In this document: positions 39,232-46,292 of the stretch, piece by piece
Layout of the letters: the number at the start of each line of letters is the position of its first letter
How positions within the stretch are numbered: position 1 is the stretch's first letter
Source of the DNA: Collimonas silvisoli
GTDB lineage: Bacteria; Pseudomonadota; Gammaproteobacteria; Burkholderiales; Burkholderiaceae_D
Assembly: GCF_018305005.1 (NCBI RefSeq)
Contig: NZ_JAGQEG010000013.1
Location: forward strand, 1 to 64,000
Direction of reading: 5' to 3'
DNA: 64,000 nucleotides
Notes under the pieces: generated by a model
What the model was told of the DNA's origin: nothing
Database searches by the model: none
Seen by the model: only the letters and a program-made list of their open reading frames with translations
Made by a program: the position numbers and the translations under genes

Positions 39232-39332
39232 AAAAGAAAACCCGAACTGCGCTTGGGCATCGGGTTTAAATCCACTCCAATGGAGGGGTGGAGGAGACAT
39301 AACGCTAATTGCCGACAATCAATCCGGCAATC
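39232..39332 (-). ncRNA. Candidate small RNA with intrinsic terminator
   Basis: About 100 nt on the minus strand. From the predicted start there is a 7-bp hairpin (ATTGCCG / CGGCAAT, 39331-39308), an unpaired pyrimidine-rich stretch with CTCCTCC, a second hairpin around CTCC-ATT-GGAG (39291-39272), and a terminator (AAACCCGA / TCGGGTTT then TCTTTT, 39267-39232). A 17-bp-spaced promoter sits exactly in front. The exposed CTCCTCC resembles an anti-Shine-Dalgarno motif. It could also encode a small peptide (ATG near 39299), but the RNA reading explains more of the structure. Confidence 0.45.
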
Positions 39333-41501: not shown

Positions 41502-42284
41502 TCAGCCCAATGCCCGCCGCAAATTGTCCAGCCCGATCTCAGCGAAGGCGTCGGCGCAACGCACCACTTCGCCGATGACGATAATGCTGGGGCTGCCAAG
41601 GCCGCTGTCATGCAAAGCTTGCGGCAGCTGGTCCAGGCTGGTCAGCAGTTGCGCTTGCGTGTTCAAGGTCGCCGACTGGATCACCGCGACCGGCATAGTT
41701 CCGGCCATGCCCGCCGCCAGCAGACTCTGCTGCAACTGTGCACAACGCGCAACACCCATGTACACCACCAGCGTCAGGCCGCTTGCCGCCAACGCCGTCC
41801 AGTTCGGCTGCGCGCTTTCGCTCTTGCCATGGCCGGTGACGAAAATCACGCCCTGGCTATAGTCGCGATGGGTAGCCGCGATGCCGATGCTGGCCGCAGC
41901 TGCCATGCCGCTGGTAATCCCCGGCACCACCTCGACCGTCACTCCTTGCTGGCGCAAATGGGCGCGCTCTTCGCCGCCGCGGCCGAACAGATAGGGATCG
42001 CCGCCTTTCAGACGGACTACGCAATGACCTGCCTGCGCCTCCACCGCCATCAGGCGTTCGATGAATTCTTGCGAAGTCGATTGGCAGCCGCCGCGCTTGC
42101 CGACATGGATCACGCGTGCGCTATCTCGCGCATGCGCCAGCACCTCGGGATTGACCAGATCGTCCACCAGCAACACATCGGCCTGAGCGATCGCCTTGAC
42201 GGCCTTCAACGTCAGCAAATCCGGATCACCGGGTCCGGCGCCTACCAGCATCACTTTGCCTGCTTGCTTCACGACTTGTTTCAT
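41502..42284 (-). CDS. cobA: Uroporphyrinogen-III C-methyltransferase
   Basis: SAM-dependent enzyme that makes precorrin-2, the branch point to sirohaem and cobalamin. Choosing the second ATG (MKQVVKQAGKVMLVGAG) gives 260 residues with AGGAG seven bases upstream; the first ATG is only one base from that site. VGAGPGDPDLLTLKA, VRLKGGDPYLFGRGGEE and VPGITSGMAA are conserved. Its place 16 bp after nrtD suggests it supplies sirohaem for assimilatory nitrite reductase. No CysG-type dehydrogenase domain is fused. Confidence 0.94.
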   Translation of the reverse strand: MKQVVKQAGKVMLVGAGPGDPDLLTLKAVKAIAQADVLLVDDLVNPEVLAHARDSARVIHVGKRGGCQSTSQEFIERLMAVEAQAGHCVVRLKGGDPYLFGRGGEERAHLRQQGVTVEVVPGITSGMAAAASIGIAATHRDYSQGVIFVTGHGKSESAQPNWTALAASGLTLVVYMGVARCAQLQQSLLAAGMAGTMPVAVIQSATLNTQAQLLTSLDQLPQALHDSGLGSPSIIVIGEVVRCADAFAEIGLDNLRRALG

Positions 42285-42300
42285 GTTCATGCTCCTGCCA

Positions 42301-43128
42301 TCAAGCCGCTTGCGCGACCGGATGGGCTTGTTTGCGATACAGGAATTCCAGCACCGAGGTCCGGTACTCGGCATACAACGGGTCCTGCGCCAGAGCCACA
42401 CGTTCGCGCGGCCGGGCCAGCCGTACCTGCACGATGTCGCCGATGGTGGCGGCGGGACCGTTAGTCATCATCACGATGCGGTCGGACAACAGCACCGCTT
42501 CGTCAACATCGTGCGTCACCATCACCACCGTCGATGCAGTCTTGGCGACAATCTTCAGCAACTCGTCCTGCAAGTGAGCGCGGGTCAAGGCGTCCAGTGC
42601 GCCGAACGGTTCGTCCATCAGCAATACTTTAGGTTCCATCGCCAAGGCGCGGGCAATGCCGACCCGTTGTTTCATGCCGCCGGAAATTTCATGCGGACGC
42701 TTTTGTCCGGCCGCTGTCAGCCCTACCATCGCCAAAGCAGCCTTGGTACGCTCCTTCAAGGCGCTCTTGTTTTCGGTCGCCGCAAACACACGCTCCACAC
42801 CAAGATAGATATTTTCGTGGCAGGTCAGCCAAGGCAGCAGCGAATGGTTTTGGAACACCACCGCGCGTTCAGGCGACGGGCCGCCGATTTCGCGGTTGGC
42901 GCAGATCAGCACGCCGTCGCTCGGCAGCAGCAGGCCGGCGATCAGATTCAACAGGGTCGATTTGCCGCAACCGGAATGGCCGATCAAGGTCACGAACTCG
43001 CCCTTGCGCACGGTCAGGTTGATATCGCGCAGCGCATGAAACTGGCCTTTGCTGGTGTTGAACACCATTTCGGCTTGATGGATATCGATGAATCTGGCGT
43101 CGCGTTGTTCCATGTTTTTCTCCGTCAT
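42301..43128 (-). CDS. nrtD: Nitrate ABC transporter ATPase
   Basis: ATP-binding subunit of a nitrate/nitrite importer (about 275 residues). Walker [10 protein letters not shown], signature [15 protein letters not shown] and Walker [13 protein letters not shown] are all present. The second in-frame candidate start (MTEKNMEQ) is chosen because GGAG lies six bases upstream; the next ATG five codons on also has GGAG at good distance. No NrtC-like C-terminal solute-binding domain is fused. Confidence 0.92.
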
Positions 43129-43147
43129 GACTTGCTCCGGCACTGAC

Positions 43148-44062
43148 TTAATTCGAAACCTGTTCGTAGGTAAATGTCTTGGCCAGCGCCACCAGCAATT
43201 GCTCCAGCAGCAGGCCGACCACGCCGATCACCACAATCGCGATGATGATGTGCGGCACGTTGAGGTTGTTCCATTCATCCCAGACCCAGAAGCCGATACC
43301 GACGCCGCCGGTCAACATTTCAGCGGCGACAATCACCAGCCAGGCAGTGCCGATTGCCAGCCGCACCCCAGTCAGCATGTACGGCAATACCGACGGCAAC
43401 AGAATCTTGGTGATGATTTTCCATTCCGACAGATTCAGCACGCGCGCCACGTTCATGTAATCCTGCGGCACTCGCTGCACGCCGACAGCGGTGTTGATGA
43501 TCATGGGCCAGATCGAACAGATGAAGATAGACCAGATCGCTGCCGGATTGGCAGACTTGAACACCAGCAAGCCGATCGGCAGCCAGGCCAGCGGCGATAC
43601 CGGTTTCAGCAAACTGATGATGGGGCCGAACATGCTGGACAGGAATTTGACGCGGCCGATCATGAATCCCAACGGAATCCCAATCACCGCCGCCAGGCCG
43701 AAACCGACGGCGACACGTTGCAGCGAAGCCAGGATGTTCCAGCCTATGCCCTGGTCGTTAGGACTGGTCCGGTAGAACGGATCGGCAAACAGTTTGAGCG
43801 CTTCCTGCAAGGTCAGCATCGGCGTCGGGAACTGGCTGTTGTTCATCGCGATGATCTGCCAGATCAGCACCAGGAACGCCAGGCCGAGCAGCGGCGCAAT
43901 GATTTGCATCAGCCAGGACGGCATGCTGCTGCGACGGCTGCTCATTTTCGGCGATGGCCGGAGTGTGACGACAGCGGCTTCAGGAACGGCTTCGGCCATC
44001 ACGCTATTCATCGTTGCCGCTTGCCGATTTTCATTTGCCGCTATGTCCATGATTGCGCTCAT
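43148..44062 (-). CDS. nrtB: Nitrate ABC transporter permease
   Basis: Inner-membrane subunit of 304 residues. An unusually long N-terminal tail of about 50 residues precedes roughly six to seven transmembrane helices. The EAA-like loop ([24 protein letters not shown]) that contacts the ATPase is present. The gene lies between nrtA and nrtD in the operon. Confidence 0.93.
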
Positions 44063-44113: not shown

Positions 44114-45388
44114 TTATGCGTGGATCTTGAAAGACGCCGCATAGGCTTGCGGATTCTTGCCGTCCCACACGGTGCCATCCATCAATTTCGAAGTCCGCAG
44201 CACGTCTTTCGGCACTGGAGTCTTCGTCATCGCCGCCGCATCTTTGTAGAGATCGATCTGGCTGACGGATTTGGCTACCGCCAGATAGTCAGGATCGGAT
44301 TTCAGCAAACCCCAGCGCCGGTGCTGCGTCATGAACCACATGCCGTCGGACAGATAGGGGAAATTCACCAGGCCGTCGTTGTAGAATTTCATGTAATTCG
44401 GATCGTCCCAGGTCTTGCCCAGGCCGTTCTGATAGCGCCCCATGATACGTTGGTCGATCACATCCTTGCTGGTGTTGACATAGGATTTGTCGGCGATCGC
44501 TTCGGCCATCTTGTTCTTGTTGGCGAGCGAGGCGTCTATCCATTTTCCTGCCTCCAGCACAGCAGCAATCAGCGCACGGCAGGTGTTCGGATTCTTGGCG
44601 GCAAATTCGGCGGTGGTGCCGAGCACTTTTTCCGGATGATCCTTCCAGATTTCCTGCGTGGTAATCGCGGTAATGCCGACACCGTCGACAATCGCCCGAT
44701 GGCCCCACGGCTCGCCGACGCAAAAGCCATCCATATTGCCGACCCGCATATTGGCCACCATCTGCGGCGGCGGCACCGTGATCACCTTGGCGTCCTTGAG
44801 CGGATTGACGCCGTTGGCGGCCAGCCAGTAATACAGCCACATGGCGTGGGTACCGGTCGGGAAGGTCTGGGCGAAAGTGTATTCACGCTTGTCGCTGGCC
44901 ATCAGTTTGGCTAATGAAGGCCCATCCACCGCGCCCTTGTCGGCCAGCTTCTTGGAGAGAGTAATCGCCTGGCCGTTATTGTTGAGTCCCATCAGGATGG
45001 CCATGTCCTTTTTCTGGCCGCCGATGCCCATCTGCACGCCGTAGATCAAGCCCGACAAGACATGCGCGGCGTCCAGTTCGCCATTGGCCAGTTTGTCGCG
45101 CACGCCGGCCCATGAAGCTTCCTTGCTGAGGATAATCTTAATGCCGTATTTTTTATCGAAGCCGAGCAGCGACGCCATCACTACCGATGCGCAATCCGTC
45201 AAAGGAATGAAGCCGATCTTGACCTCGGTTTTTTCCGGCTTGTCCGAGCCTGCGGCCCATACACCCGTGCTTGATAGTCCCAACATGCTGGCTCCTGCCG
45301 CGAGAGTCGCGGTTTGTAGTATTTGGCGGCGCTTGCCGTCGACAAGCGCGTTCGGCACGTCTAGCGGCAGTGCATTTTTTGTTTCCAT
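44114..45388 (-). CDS. nrtA: Nitrate-binding protein of the NrtA/CmpA family
   Basis: Periplasmic or lipid-side nitrate receptor. The start METKNALPLDVPNALVDGKR gives 424 residues with GGAG seven bases upstream. The N-terminus has a twin-arginine-like signal (KRRQILQ, then a hydrophobic stretch ending GVWA), so it is predicted to be exported folded. VKIGFIPLTDCASVV opens the mature domain. The related sensor NasS normally lacks a signal peptide, which argues that this is the transporter subunit. Expression is predicted to depend on sigma-54 and on NasT. Confidence 0.92.
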   Translation of the reverse strand: METKNALPLDVPNALVDGKRRQILQTATLAAGASMLGLSSTGVWAAGSDKPEKTEVKIGFIPLTDCASVVMASLLGFDKKYGIKIILSKEASWAGVRDKLANGELDAAHVLSGLIYGVQMGIGGQKKDMAILMGLNNNGQAITLSKKLADKGAVDGPSLAKLMASDKREYTFAQTFPTGTHAMWLYYWLAANGVNPLKDAKVITVPPPQMVANMRVGNMDGFCVGEPWGHRAIVDGVGITAITTQEIWKDHPEKVLGTTAEFAAKNPNTCRALIAAVLEAGKWIDASLANKNKMAEAIADKSYVNTSKDVIDQRIMGRYQNGLGKTWDDPNYMKFYNDGLVNFPYLSDGMWFMTQHRRWGLLKSDPDYLAVAKSVSQIDLYKDAAAMTKTPVPKDVLRTSKLMDGTVWDGKNPQAYAASFKIHA

Positions 45389-45415: not shown

Positions 45416-45461
45416 AAAAAAGGCGTCGTCCCGCCATGAACGAGTCATGCGGAAAGACACC
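45416..45461 (-). terminator. Intrinsic terminator in the nrtA leader
   Basis: On the minus strand GGTGTC (45461-45456) pairs with GACGCC (45427-45422). After one mismatch the stem continues through TTCCGC/GCGGGA and, past one bulged G, ATGA/TCAT, about 16 pairs in all, followed by six T. Its 5' arm uses the loop and 3' arm of the upstream AAGAC hairpin, so the two structures exclude each other. Confidence 0.75.
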
Positions 45462-45519
45462 TTTGTCTTATGTGGAAAAGACCGCCGTTAGTCGATTCCA
45501 GCGGCGCCAGCGTTGGCGC
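45454..45519 (-). ncRNA. ANTAR-type double hexaloop RNA element
   Basis: Two hairpins with 5-bp stems and six-base loops: GCGCC-AACGCT-GGCGC (45519-45504) and AAGAC-AAAGGT-GTCTT (45469-45454). Both loops have A at position 1 and G at position 4, the signature recognised by ANTAR domains. A 34-nt linker separates them. An ANTAR protein binding here would hold the second hairpin closed and prevent the overlapping terminator from forming. Confidence 0.75.
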
Positions 45520-45532
45520 TTGAAATTAACTA

Positions 45533-45548
45533 TGCAAACCACGTGCCA
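45533..45548 (-). promoter_or_regulatory. Sigma-54 promoter of nrtA operon
   Basis: Minus strand TGGCACG-TGGT-TTGCA matches the -24/-12 consensus essentially perfectly, with GG and GC at the required spacing. The predicted start near 45522 lies just before the first hexaloop hairpin. Sigma-54 plus NtrC control would make nitrate uptake nitrogen-regulated. Confidence 0.88.
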
Positions 45549-45671
45549 GGATTTTTTATCAGATAGCGCTTGTTTTTCGCTCAAAAAGCGCACCTGTCTT
45601 GTGCATTGCACCAAACATGCACGCAGCAACCGGGCATTTTTATTTCCGTTAAGAACTTATGCGGGACTGAT

Positions 45672-46292
45672 TCAGCCCAGTAAATCGGCGGCGTCGATAA
45701 TGCGCTGCGCTACCTCGGACAATTTCAGGTTCTTGTCCATCGCCAGCCGGCGCAGCTTTTGATAAGCCTCCTGCTCGCTCAGCTTGTGGTGCTCCATCAG
45801 CAAGCCCTTGGCCCGTTCCAGCAGCTTGCGCTCAGCCAGCTTCAACTTGGTGTCTGATAACTCAGCCAACAGCTTTTGCTCTTGCCGGAAGCGCGCCAGC
45901 GCTACCTCCAGCACCGGCTTGATACGCGCCGTCTGCAGCCCCGCCACGATGTACGCGGAGACGCCGGCCGCCATTGCGGCTTCCATGCTGGAGGTTTTTG
46001 CGTCTTCGGTAAACAGGACGATGGGGCGGCGCGCATCGCGGGTCGCCACCACCACGTGCTCCAGTACATCGCGGGCGTCGGATTCGGCGTCGACGATGAT
46101 CATGTCGGGTTGCAATTGCGCAATCCGCTCGGGCAGATATAAATCGGCCGGTAGCGAAGCGATGATGTTGTAGCCGGCCTCCAGCAAACCGATGCGCAAA
46201 GCCTTGCCGCGCGCGGCCTGGGCCTCGAACGCAGGATCGTCGTCGCCATCGATGGCGACCGGATTGACAACAACGATACGTAGACTTTGCAT
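45672..46292 (-). CDS. nasT: ANTAR-domain antiterminator NasT
   Basis: 206-residue two-domain regulator from MQSLRIVVVNPV. A receiver-like domain (about residues 1-125, with the phospho-acceptor position Asp68 in MIIVDAES) is followed by a coiled linker and an ANTAR RNA-binding domain (about 148-203). NasT proteins act as antiterminators for nitrate assimilation genes and are held inactive by NasS until nitrate is present. No nasS is seen in this window. It lies upstream of, and on the same strand as, the nrt operon, with the RNA target between them. Confidence 0.9.
   Translation of the reverse strand: MQSLRIVVVNPVAIDGDDDPAFEAQAARGKALRIGLLEAGYNIIASLPADLYLPERIAQLQPDMIIVDAESDARDVLEHVVVATRDARRPIVLFTEDAKTSSMEAAMAAGVSAYIVAGLQTARIKPVLEVALARFRQEQKLLAELSDTKLKLAERKLLERAKGLLMEHHKLSEQEAYQKLRRLAMDKNLKLSEVAQRIIDAADLLG

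Follow-up and report, generated by a model that had tools for sequence, protein, structure and literature searches.

The leader of a nitrate operon in Collimonas silvisoli carries three hairpins whose six-base loops have A at position 1 and G at position 4 (A1/G4 hexaloops), one of them upstream of the canonical ANTAR pair. The leader lies on the minus strand of the 64,000-nucleotide stretch of DNA analyzed here (the window), downstream of nasT, whose stop codon is at 45674-45672, and upstream of an nrtA-like gene that starts at 45388. That a sigma-54/NtrC promoter feeds a NasT-ANTAR RNA attenuator at this place is, in our judgment, very probable. For the extra hairpin, P0, covariation demonstrates the stem; we infer its function as a NasT binding site, a reading that we favor with some reserve.

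The position of the nasT stop codon agrees with the initial annotation, which had placed this gene directly upstream of the leader. Behind the leader, the profile matches read as an operon of the nrtABC-cobA type, encoding a binding protein, a permease, an ATPase and a uroporphyrinogen-III methyltransferase (Table 1). The last of these genes probably starts further in than listed, because the listed start overlaps the ATPase gene. The twin-arginine call on the nrtA-like product relies on what we take to be the Tat criterion. By NasT, the closest named relatives are seven loci of Collimonas (96-99% NasT identity), a genus of the family Oxalobacteraceae. Elsewhere in the window, positions 39232-39299 of the minus strand match the Betaproteobacteria toxic small RNA of Rfam (RF02278, 52.5 bits), exceeding the gathering score of 50.

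Table 1. Features of the leader and its surroundings, with the basis of each assignment.
Feature	Position	Strand	Basis
nasT, ANTAR protein, 206 aa from ATG	45675..46292	-	Pfam ANTAR, 74.7 bits (cut-off 27.3)
NtrC-like site TGCACAAGACAGGTGCG	45589..45605	-	palindrome pattern, recurrent in leaders
sigma-54 -24/-12 promoter TGGCACGTGGTTTGC	45534..45548	-	sequence; assumed consensus
P0 hexaloop hairpin GCGCC-AACGCT-GGCGC	45504..45519	-	covariation; stem-only test
P1 hexaloop hairpin, inner stem GACT-AACGGC-GGTC (45493-45480), outer helix 45500-45496/45477-45473	45473..45500	-	folds; covariation
P2 hexaloop hairpin AAGAC-AAAGGT-GTCTT (antiterminator)	45454..45469	-	folds; terminator overlap
intrinsic terminator, 19 pairs with one bulge, six U	45416..45464	-	leader fold
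nrtA-like nitrate-binding protein, twin-arginine N-terminus	44117..45388	-	Pfam NMT1_2, 344 bits; N-terminus by eye
nitrate ABC transporter permease	43151..44062	-	TIGR01183, 259 bits (cut-off 209.05)
nitrate ABC transporter ATPase	42304..43143	-	TIGR01184, 330.6 bits (cut-off 291.8)
uroporphyrinogen-III C-methyltransferase	41505..42401 (ORF as listed)	-	TIGR01469, 292.4 bits (cut-off 185), from residue 48
L109, second three-hexaloop leader	genome G000, contig C176:12925-12997	-	R1 match

Two of the hexaloop hairpins, with the loops AACGCT and AAAGGT, were already recognized in the initial annotation, and both stand. It had paired them across a 34-nt linker, which does not hold: the supposed linker contains a third hexaloop hairpin, with A1 and G4 present in its loop (AACGGC) as in the other two. 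This intervening hairpin is likely the true P1 of the ANTAR pair; the hairpin formerly counted as the first is P0, additional to the canonical pair and adjacent to the predicted 5′ terminus. From P0 to P1 and from P1 to P2 the loops are 25 nt apart, and 10 nt separate the inner stems of P1 and P2. In an RNA ending at P2, the three hairpins form the best fold with pair probabilities of at least 0.87 (0.87-0.94 for P1), except for the outermost P2 pair (0.70). At a length of 43 nt, as in the best fold of the full-length RNA, an alternative hairpin displaces the P1 hexaloop; folding the window RNA by itself closes the P0 and P2 loops to tetraloops through A1-U6. Dinucleotide shuffles of the 71-nt stretch yield at least two A1/G4 hexaloop hairpins in 0.015% of cases and three in none of 20000. 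On both strands of the window, hexaloop clusters start at two positions only (45519 and 45493), both inside the leader.

The terminator was described earlier as having about 16 pairs plus six U; it is present (45464-45419, six U at 45421-45416) and has 19 pairs with one bulge. As that description also stated, its 5′ arm (AAAGGTGTC) consists of the loop and 3′ arm of P2, and the proposed mutual exclusion of P2 and terminator is supported by an overlap kept in 56 of 57 related leaders, scored where the folded terminator pairs at least 5 of the 9 nt of P2 loop and 3′ arm. The exception is L083, which has no T run by the rule used. Loss of this overlap, or of A1 and G4, in relatives had been set beforehand as grounds for refutation, and A1/G4 loops recur likewise. 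The leader folds with -46.5 kcal/mol (z -4.92), and the complete terminator gains 11.5 kcal/mol in stability over a fold in which P2 is held. A promoter and terminator scan gave only an inner part of the long terminator. In the window fold, P2 has a competitor in a GUCUU/AAGAC pairing, which by eye is broken in L014. P1 and P2 together are two A1/G4 hexaloop hairpins with a short linker, the second overlapping an intrinsic terminator, as in described ANTAR targets. The count of three departs from the description of no more than two hexaloops and marks a variant without excluding membership, the limit being a description in the papers and no proven requirement.

Relatives were collected with NasT. 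At the family level 112 of 145 genomes had a match at E 1e-3, other ANTAR proteins included, and at the order level 85 of 250 at E 1e-30. The resulting set of 95 loci comprises 30 from the family search, 40 hand-picked from its list and 25 from the order search. A sigma-54 motif and a P2 motif occur between nasT and an nrtA-type gene at 57 of them; these leaders are related to one another, and counts among them are not counts of independent events. Nine loci with a sigma-54 motif and no P2 by pattern are omitted from the 57: L088 and L104, which display P2-like hairpins, and seven of genus g6 (L039, L041, L042, L043, L046, L050 and L052). In the latter the sigma-54 motif follows nasT, and the gene after it is an NrtA relative with 63-67% identity.

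P0 was located in the 57 leaders by its 5′ side and loop alone, with an anchor that used A1 and G4; 43 leaders reach an anchor score of at least 7, and in 41 of these the hairpin pairs at least four contiguous bases with its 3′ side, which the anchor had ignored. The P0 stem has a covariation score of 0.436 over 40 distinct sequences; shuffling brings it to 0.183 +/- 0.019, and sliding never above 0.137. Three pairs are present in every one of the 40, and at two of these positions five and six pair types occur; the outermost two pairs are unpaired in 26 and 22 sequences. The P1 score is 0.512 (0.254 +/- 0.027 shuffled). The compensatory changes that the initial annotation proposed to seek by aligning related leaders are thus found in both stems. 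In alignment A1, MAFFT displaced one row (L075) by three columns; alignment A2 lacks L013 (31 of the 32 leaders with clear P0, P1 and P2), and only four P0 pairs were modeled in it, because the alignment misplaced the outer P0 pairs of the short-spacer group. Because the anchor had used A1 and G4, an anchor-free test was run on the 54 leaders with a usable P1, taking the best hairpin between promoter and P1 by stem strength, with any loop of 3-9 nt and the closing pair of tetraloops opened. An A1/G4 hexaloop is found upstream in 37 leaders, against 0.65 expected from mononucleotide shuffles; 11 have another loop and six no upstream hairpin.

In the 32 leaders with three clear hairpins, the P1-P2 loop distance is 20-25 nt. 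The P0-P1 distance spans 25-40 nt, with 25-27 nt in 15 leaders and 33-40 nt in 17. P1 stems vary from 4 to 11 pairs at a steady P1-P2 loop distance, so it is the loop distance that is kept, not the length of the linker. Such geometry is consistent with a canonical dimer site at P1-P2 and an accessory one at P0. Leaders L063 and L064 are natural spacing variants, in which a long insert sets the P0 and P1 loops about 70-80 nt apart and the P1-P2 spacing is kept. Where present, the P0 stem mostly starts 10-15 nt past the promoter TTGC, that is, at or beside the predicted 5′ end. Not every leader needs P0, given the 11 leaders with another loop, the six without an upstream hairpin by rule (L028, L029, L030, L101, L102 and L073, the last with a P0 broken by one mismatch) and the named Herbaspirillum loci, in which the stem is retained and closes a loop of a length other than six nt (e.g., GCGC-AAGGTTT-GCGC). 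Among 80 named loci, several of them from the same genomes as the earlier set, a strict rule gives three hairpins in 47, four in one, two in 19 and none in 13; at least one of the 47, L288, has its extra hairpin outside the P0 register.

The promoter, previously called near-perfect, is indeed near-consensus, the GG and GC elements used for -24 and -12 being what we take to be the consensus; transcription is predicted to start at about 45522. The palindrome upstream of it is presumably an NtrC site, and both rpoN and ntrC score above the cut-off in the window's genome. The sequence has both parts expected of a sigma-54/NtrC promoter: GG and GC in the -24/-12 element, and a predicted NtrC site further upstream. 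In relatives, the sigma-54 motif is found at 25 of 30 family loci. The palindrome ([CT]GCAC-N7-GTGC or its mirror, sought up to 140 nt upstream of -24) occurs in 30 of the 57 leaders and a relaxed form in 44, with 0.12 and 1.1 expected from mononucleotide shuffles. Helical phasing of these sites is weak (R 0.51, 17 distinct distances, p 0.013 against uniform distances). The scan for promoters and terminators listed the palindrome as terminator-like, an assignment that was rejected. At L011, an insertion with inverted repeats (CCCGCGAACGCGGG...) between nasT and promoter parts the NtrC-like site from the sigma-54 promoter, which places the site beyond the 140-nt search range.

The elements suggest the following sequence of events. 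NtrC at about 45605-45589 would activate sigma-54 polymerase at 45548-45534, and a promoter for nitrogen limitation would in this way feed an RNA attenuator. The transcript from about 45522 would fold into P0, P1 and P2, each with its A1/G4 hexaloop. As long as no NasT is active, the terminator (45464-45416) would win, using the loop and 3′ arm of P2. NasT bound to P1 and P2, the canonical ANTAR pair, would block the terminator, to judge from homologous systems, and polymerase would proceed into nrtABC-cobA. At the 5′ end, P0 would most likely give NasT a third place to dock, raising occupancy or allowing NasT to load before P2 appears.

Two other roles for P0 were weighed. As a 5′-terminal hairpin it may just protect or space the transcript, with P1 and P2 acting alone as in the standard model and no NasT on P0. 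P0 begins a few nucleotides after the predicted transcript start where it is present, Herbaspirillum retains the stem with a loop of another size, and in the accessible text on NasR two hairpins suffice for binding, all of which suits such a role. A protective stem, however, has no known reason to carry an A1/G4 hexaloop, and yet such loops far exceed expectation in the stem-only test; we consider this explanation unlikely, if plausible. It is also conceivable that P0 and P1 form a competing site, so that a NasT dimer on P0-P1 leaves P2 to the terminator and P0 damps induction. The equal loop distances in the window would let a dimer take either pair, but the 33-40 nt between P0 and P1 in 17 of the 32 triple leaders fall outside the P1-P2 range, and we regard a damping role as improbable.

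The pairing of P0 with P2 across 34 nt, as first proposed, has in its favor that both hairpins are present with A1 and G4. Against it stand the covarying hexaloop hairpin between them, the fact that P1-P2 is the constrained distance, and published linker limits that are shorter. In the available text on eut leaders, linkers measure 5-12 nt, induction drops drastically at 14 nt (PMC3369931), and antitermination in vitro is lost when 20 nt are added (PMC8934654); for actinobacteria, a range of 2-25 nt was accepted (PMC8164766). Since 14 nt, or 20 added nt, already harm antitermination in eut, a 34-nt pairing is hardly credible, and pairing of P1 with P2 removes the difficulty. Returning to P0 as a NasT site, a wider hypothesis can be put forward tentatively: the three-hexaloop array would be a feature of nitrate leaders in the order and part of the class, with P0 a working site on which NasT loads together with P1 before passing to P1-P2, making antitermination cooperative, and in the genus the folded Tat precursor of NrtA, the first product of the operon, might sense nitrate.

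Concerning NasT itself, a Pfam profile search reported no receiver family in the protein. Its best relative in the PDB is EutV (6wsh, E 2.2e-23), and nasT has one match in the window's genome. An MDKN stretch is common to NasT and NasR in the same alignment output. Nine EutV residues are named in the accessible text (PMC8934654); all nine fall on the right letters if the published numbering is assumed to differ by two from the chain index. In our reading of the alignment, NasT appears to keep R142, E160 and Y164, which contact G4 in EutV, as well as K143 and M172, and to replace K147 by R, N173 by D, R175 by N and R177 by K.

In Paracoccus, according to the available text, nitrate frees NasT from NasS, which is predicted to be cytoplasmic, and the freed NasT becomes oligomeric (PMC3795266). 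The leader resembles that system in its NasT-type ANTAR protein, its place before a nitrate operon and the NtrBC input (PMC3795266, PMC5424462, as far as accessible), and differs in that no separate NasS-type gene was found in any of 15 genomes of the genus, each of which has one NrtA-type locus at E 1e-30. Of the proposed nitrate input through NasT, the NasT-type protein is therefore in place and the sensing part is incomplete, which raises a clear question, namely how NasT learns of nitrate in this genus. Two of the genus genomes, G752 and G102, have nrtA in pieces; in G102 (1.7 Mb) pieces of nasT likewise carry stops. The window's genome, a draft of 241 contigs, has one strong NMT1_2 match, at 346 bits against 91 for the next, which is nrtA of the operon described here; the other eight matches have hydrophobic, signal-like N-termini by eye. 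Two very similar signal-bearing NMT1-type binding proteins (L003 and L005, contigs C5 and C174) are encoded at separate places in it. A search for NIT domains gave no match; its control matched nowhere either, which leaves the negative uninformative. As a conjecture, the folded Tat precursor of NrtA could be the nitrate sensor for NasT.

Among 26 family genomes hand-picked by leader type, five have a NasS-like gene (58-65% identical) together with an NrtA of 77-80%, two a NasS-like gene alone (54-58%), 17 NrtA alone (74-91%) and two NrtA with a 37-38% relative. The NrtA-type N-termini inspected are twin-arginine except in G054 (KRP), and the NasS-like ones inspected, G030 not among them, are without a signal. 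In G030, with one nasT match, a P0-less leader precedes the NasS-like gene and a three-hexaloop leader precedes nrtA. A link between P0 and loss of NasS was considered and rejected: P0 is present in L037, where the first gene is 61% identical to NrtA, and a three-hexaloop leader in G018, whose sole copy is NasS-like.

The array is found beyond this operon. A covariance model of the three-hexaloop array (R1) was built from 31 sequences including the window, which scores 68.3 bits by construction. Outside the training set, it finds a second leader in the window's genome (L109, 33.8 bits, E 6.4e-6), with a sigma-54 motif, three A1/G4 hexaloops and a terminator-like stem. The genes that follow are of the narK-nirB-nasA type: a NarK-type transporter, NirB, a NirB-like reductase and a molybdopterin protein of the nitrate-reductase type, the NarK and nitrate-reductase matches lying under the curated NCBIfam cut-offs. 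Two transcription units of nitrate assimilation thus seem to share the leader design in this genome. Further weak matches, six in the window (8.8-14.3 bits) and two in the genome (E 0.11 and 0.67), are taken as chance. R1 is biased to three-hairpin leaders, and its matches, in 45 of 369 genomes at class level (E 1e-3, the window's own counted) and 32 of 398 at phylum level, are not frequencies. Among 29 class-level loci fetched outside the window's genome, ten have three A1/G4 hexaloops (L112-L120 and L131). By rule, 23 loci from outside the order include 13 with two hexaloops, one (L168) with three and nine with one or none.

The initial annotation read two-level control from the DNA, with nitrogen status acting through sigma-54 and nitrate through NasT. 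The combination of a sigma-54/NtrC promoter with ANTAR antitermination is supported, and it is not new: as described in the accessible part of a review, the NalA leader of Pseudomonas nirBD has a sigma-54 promoter under NtrC and readthrough with NasT (PMC12830290), by which the design is already established. The two share this promoter type and NasT antitermination of a nitrate or nitrite operon, and differ in the target operon, nirBD for NalA. The ANTAR-target leaders of EutV, NasR and AmiR are described, in the available text, as two hairpins (PMC3369931, PMC3369936, PMC8934654, PMC7496416). They have in common with the window leader tandem short A1/G4 hexaloop hairpins, the last overlapping an intrinsic terminator, before nitrogen genes; the window leader adds P0 upstream of the canonical pair. 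So far the ANTAR RNA motif has, in these sources, been defined and searched as two dimer-bound hairpins; with a conserved third site, that definition would no longer be wide enough for many nitrate leaders. The third hexaloop also offers a natural case on which stoichiometry, loading order and spacing can be tested in antitermination. A literature search, with key primary papers and supplementary tables outside its reach, returned no description of a three-hexaloop ANTAR target, and the novelty of P0 is not secure.

At the gathering threshold, the leader has no match in Rfam. Below it, in a 321-base search, the window scores 26.2 bits with the narK RNA (RF03032, gathering score 43.2, E 0.0037) and 20.6 bits with P11 (RF00625, gathering score 70, E 0.013). 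By eye, the narK RNA consensus comprises a GGCAC...UUGC box, a P1-type hexaloop hairpin and a P2-type GAC-AAAGAC-GUC, without P0. The consensus of P11, a Pseudomonas sRNA, comprises a GGCAC...UGC box, AACGAU, AUAGAA, GGAC-AAAGGC-GUCC and a terminator, and so reads as three A1/G4 hexaloops like those of the window leader. Both families thus show a sigma-54-like box and ANTAR hexaloops by eye, and their annotated structures omit the P2 hairpin. P11, catalogued as an sRNA, is presumably NalA. The ncRNA NfiR of Pseudomonas stutzeri is reported, in the accessible text, as a P11 homologue (PMC6606865) and may be related to the leader type of the window.
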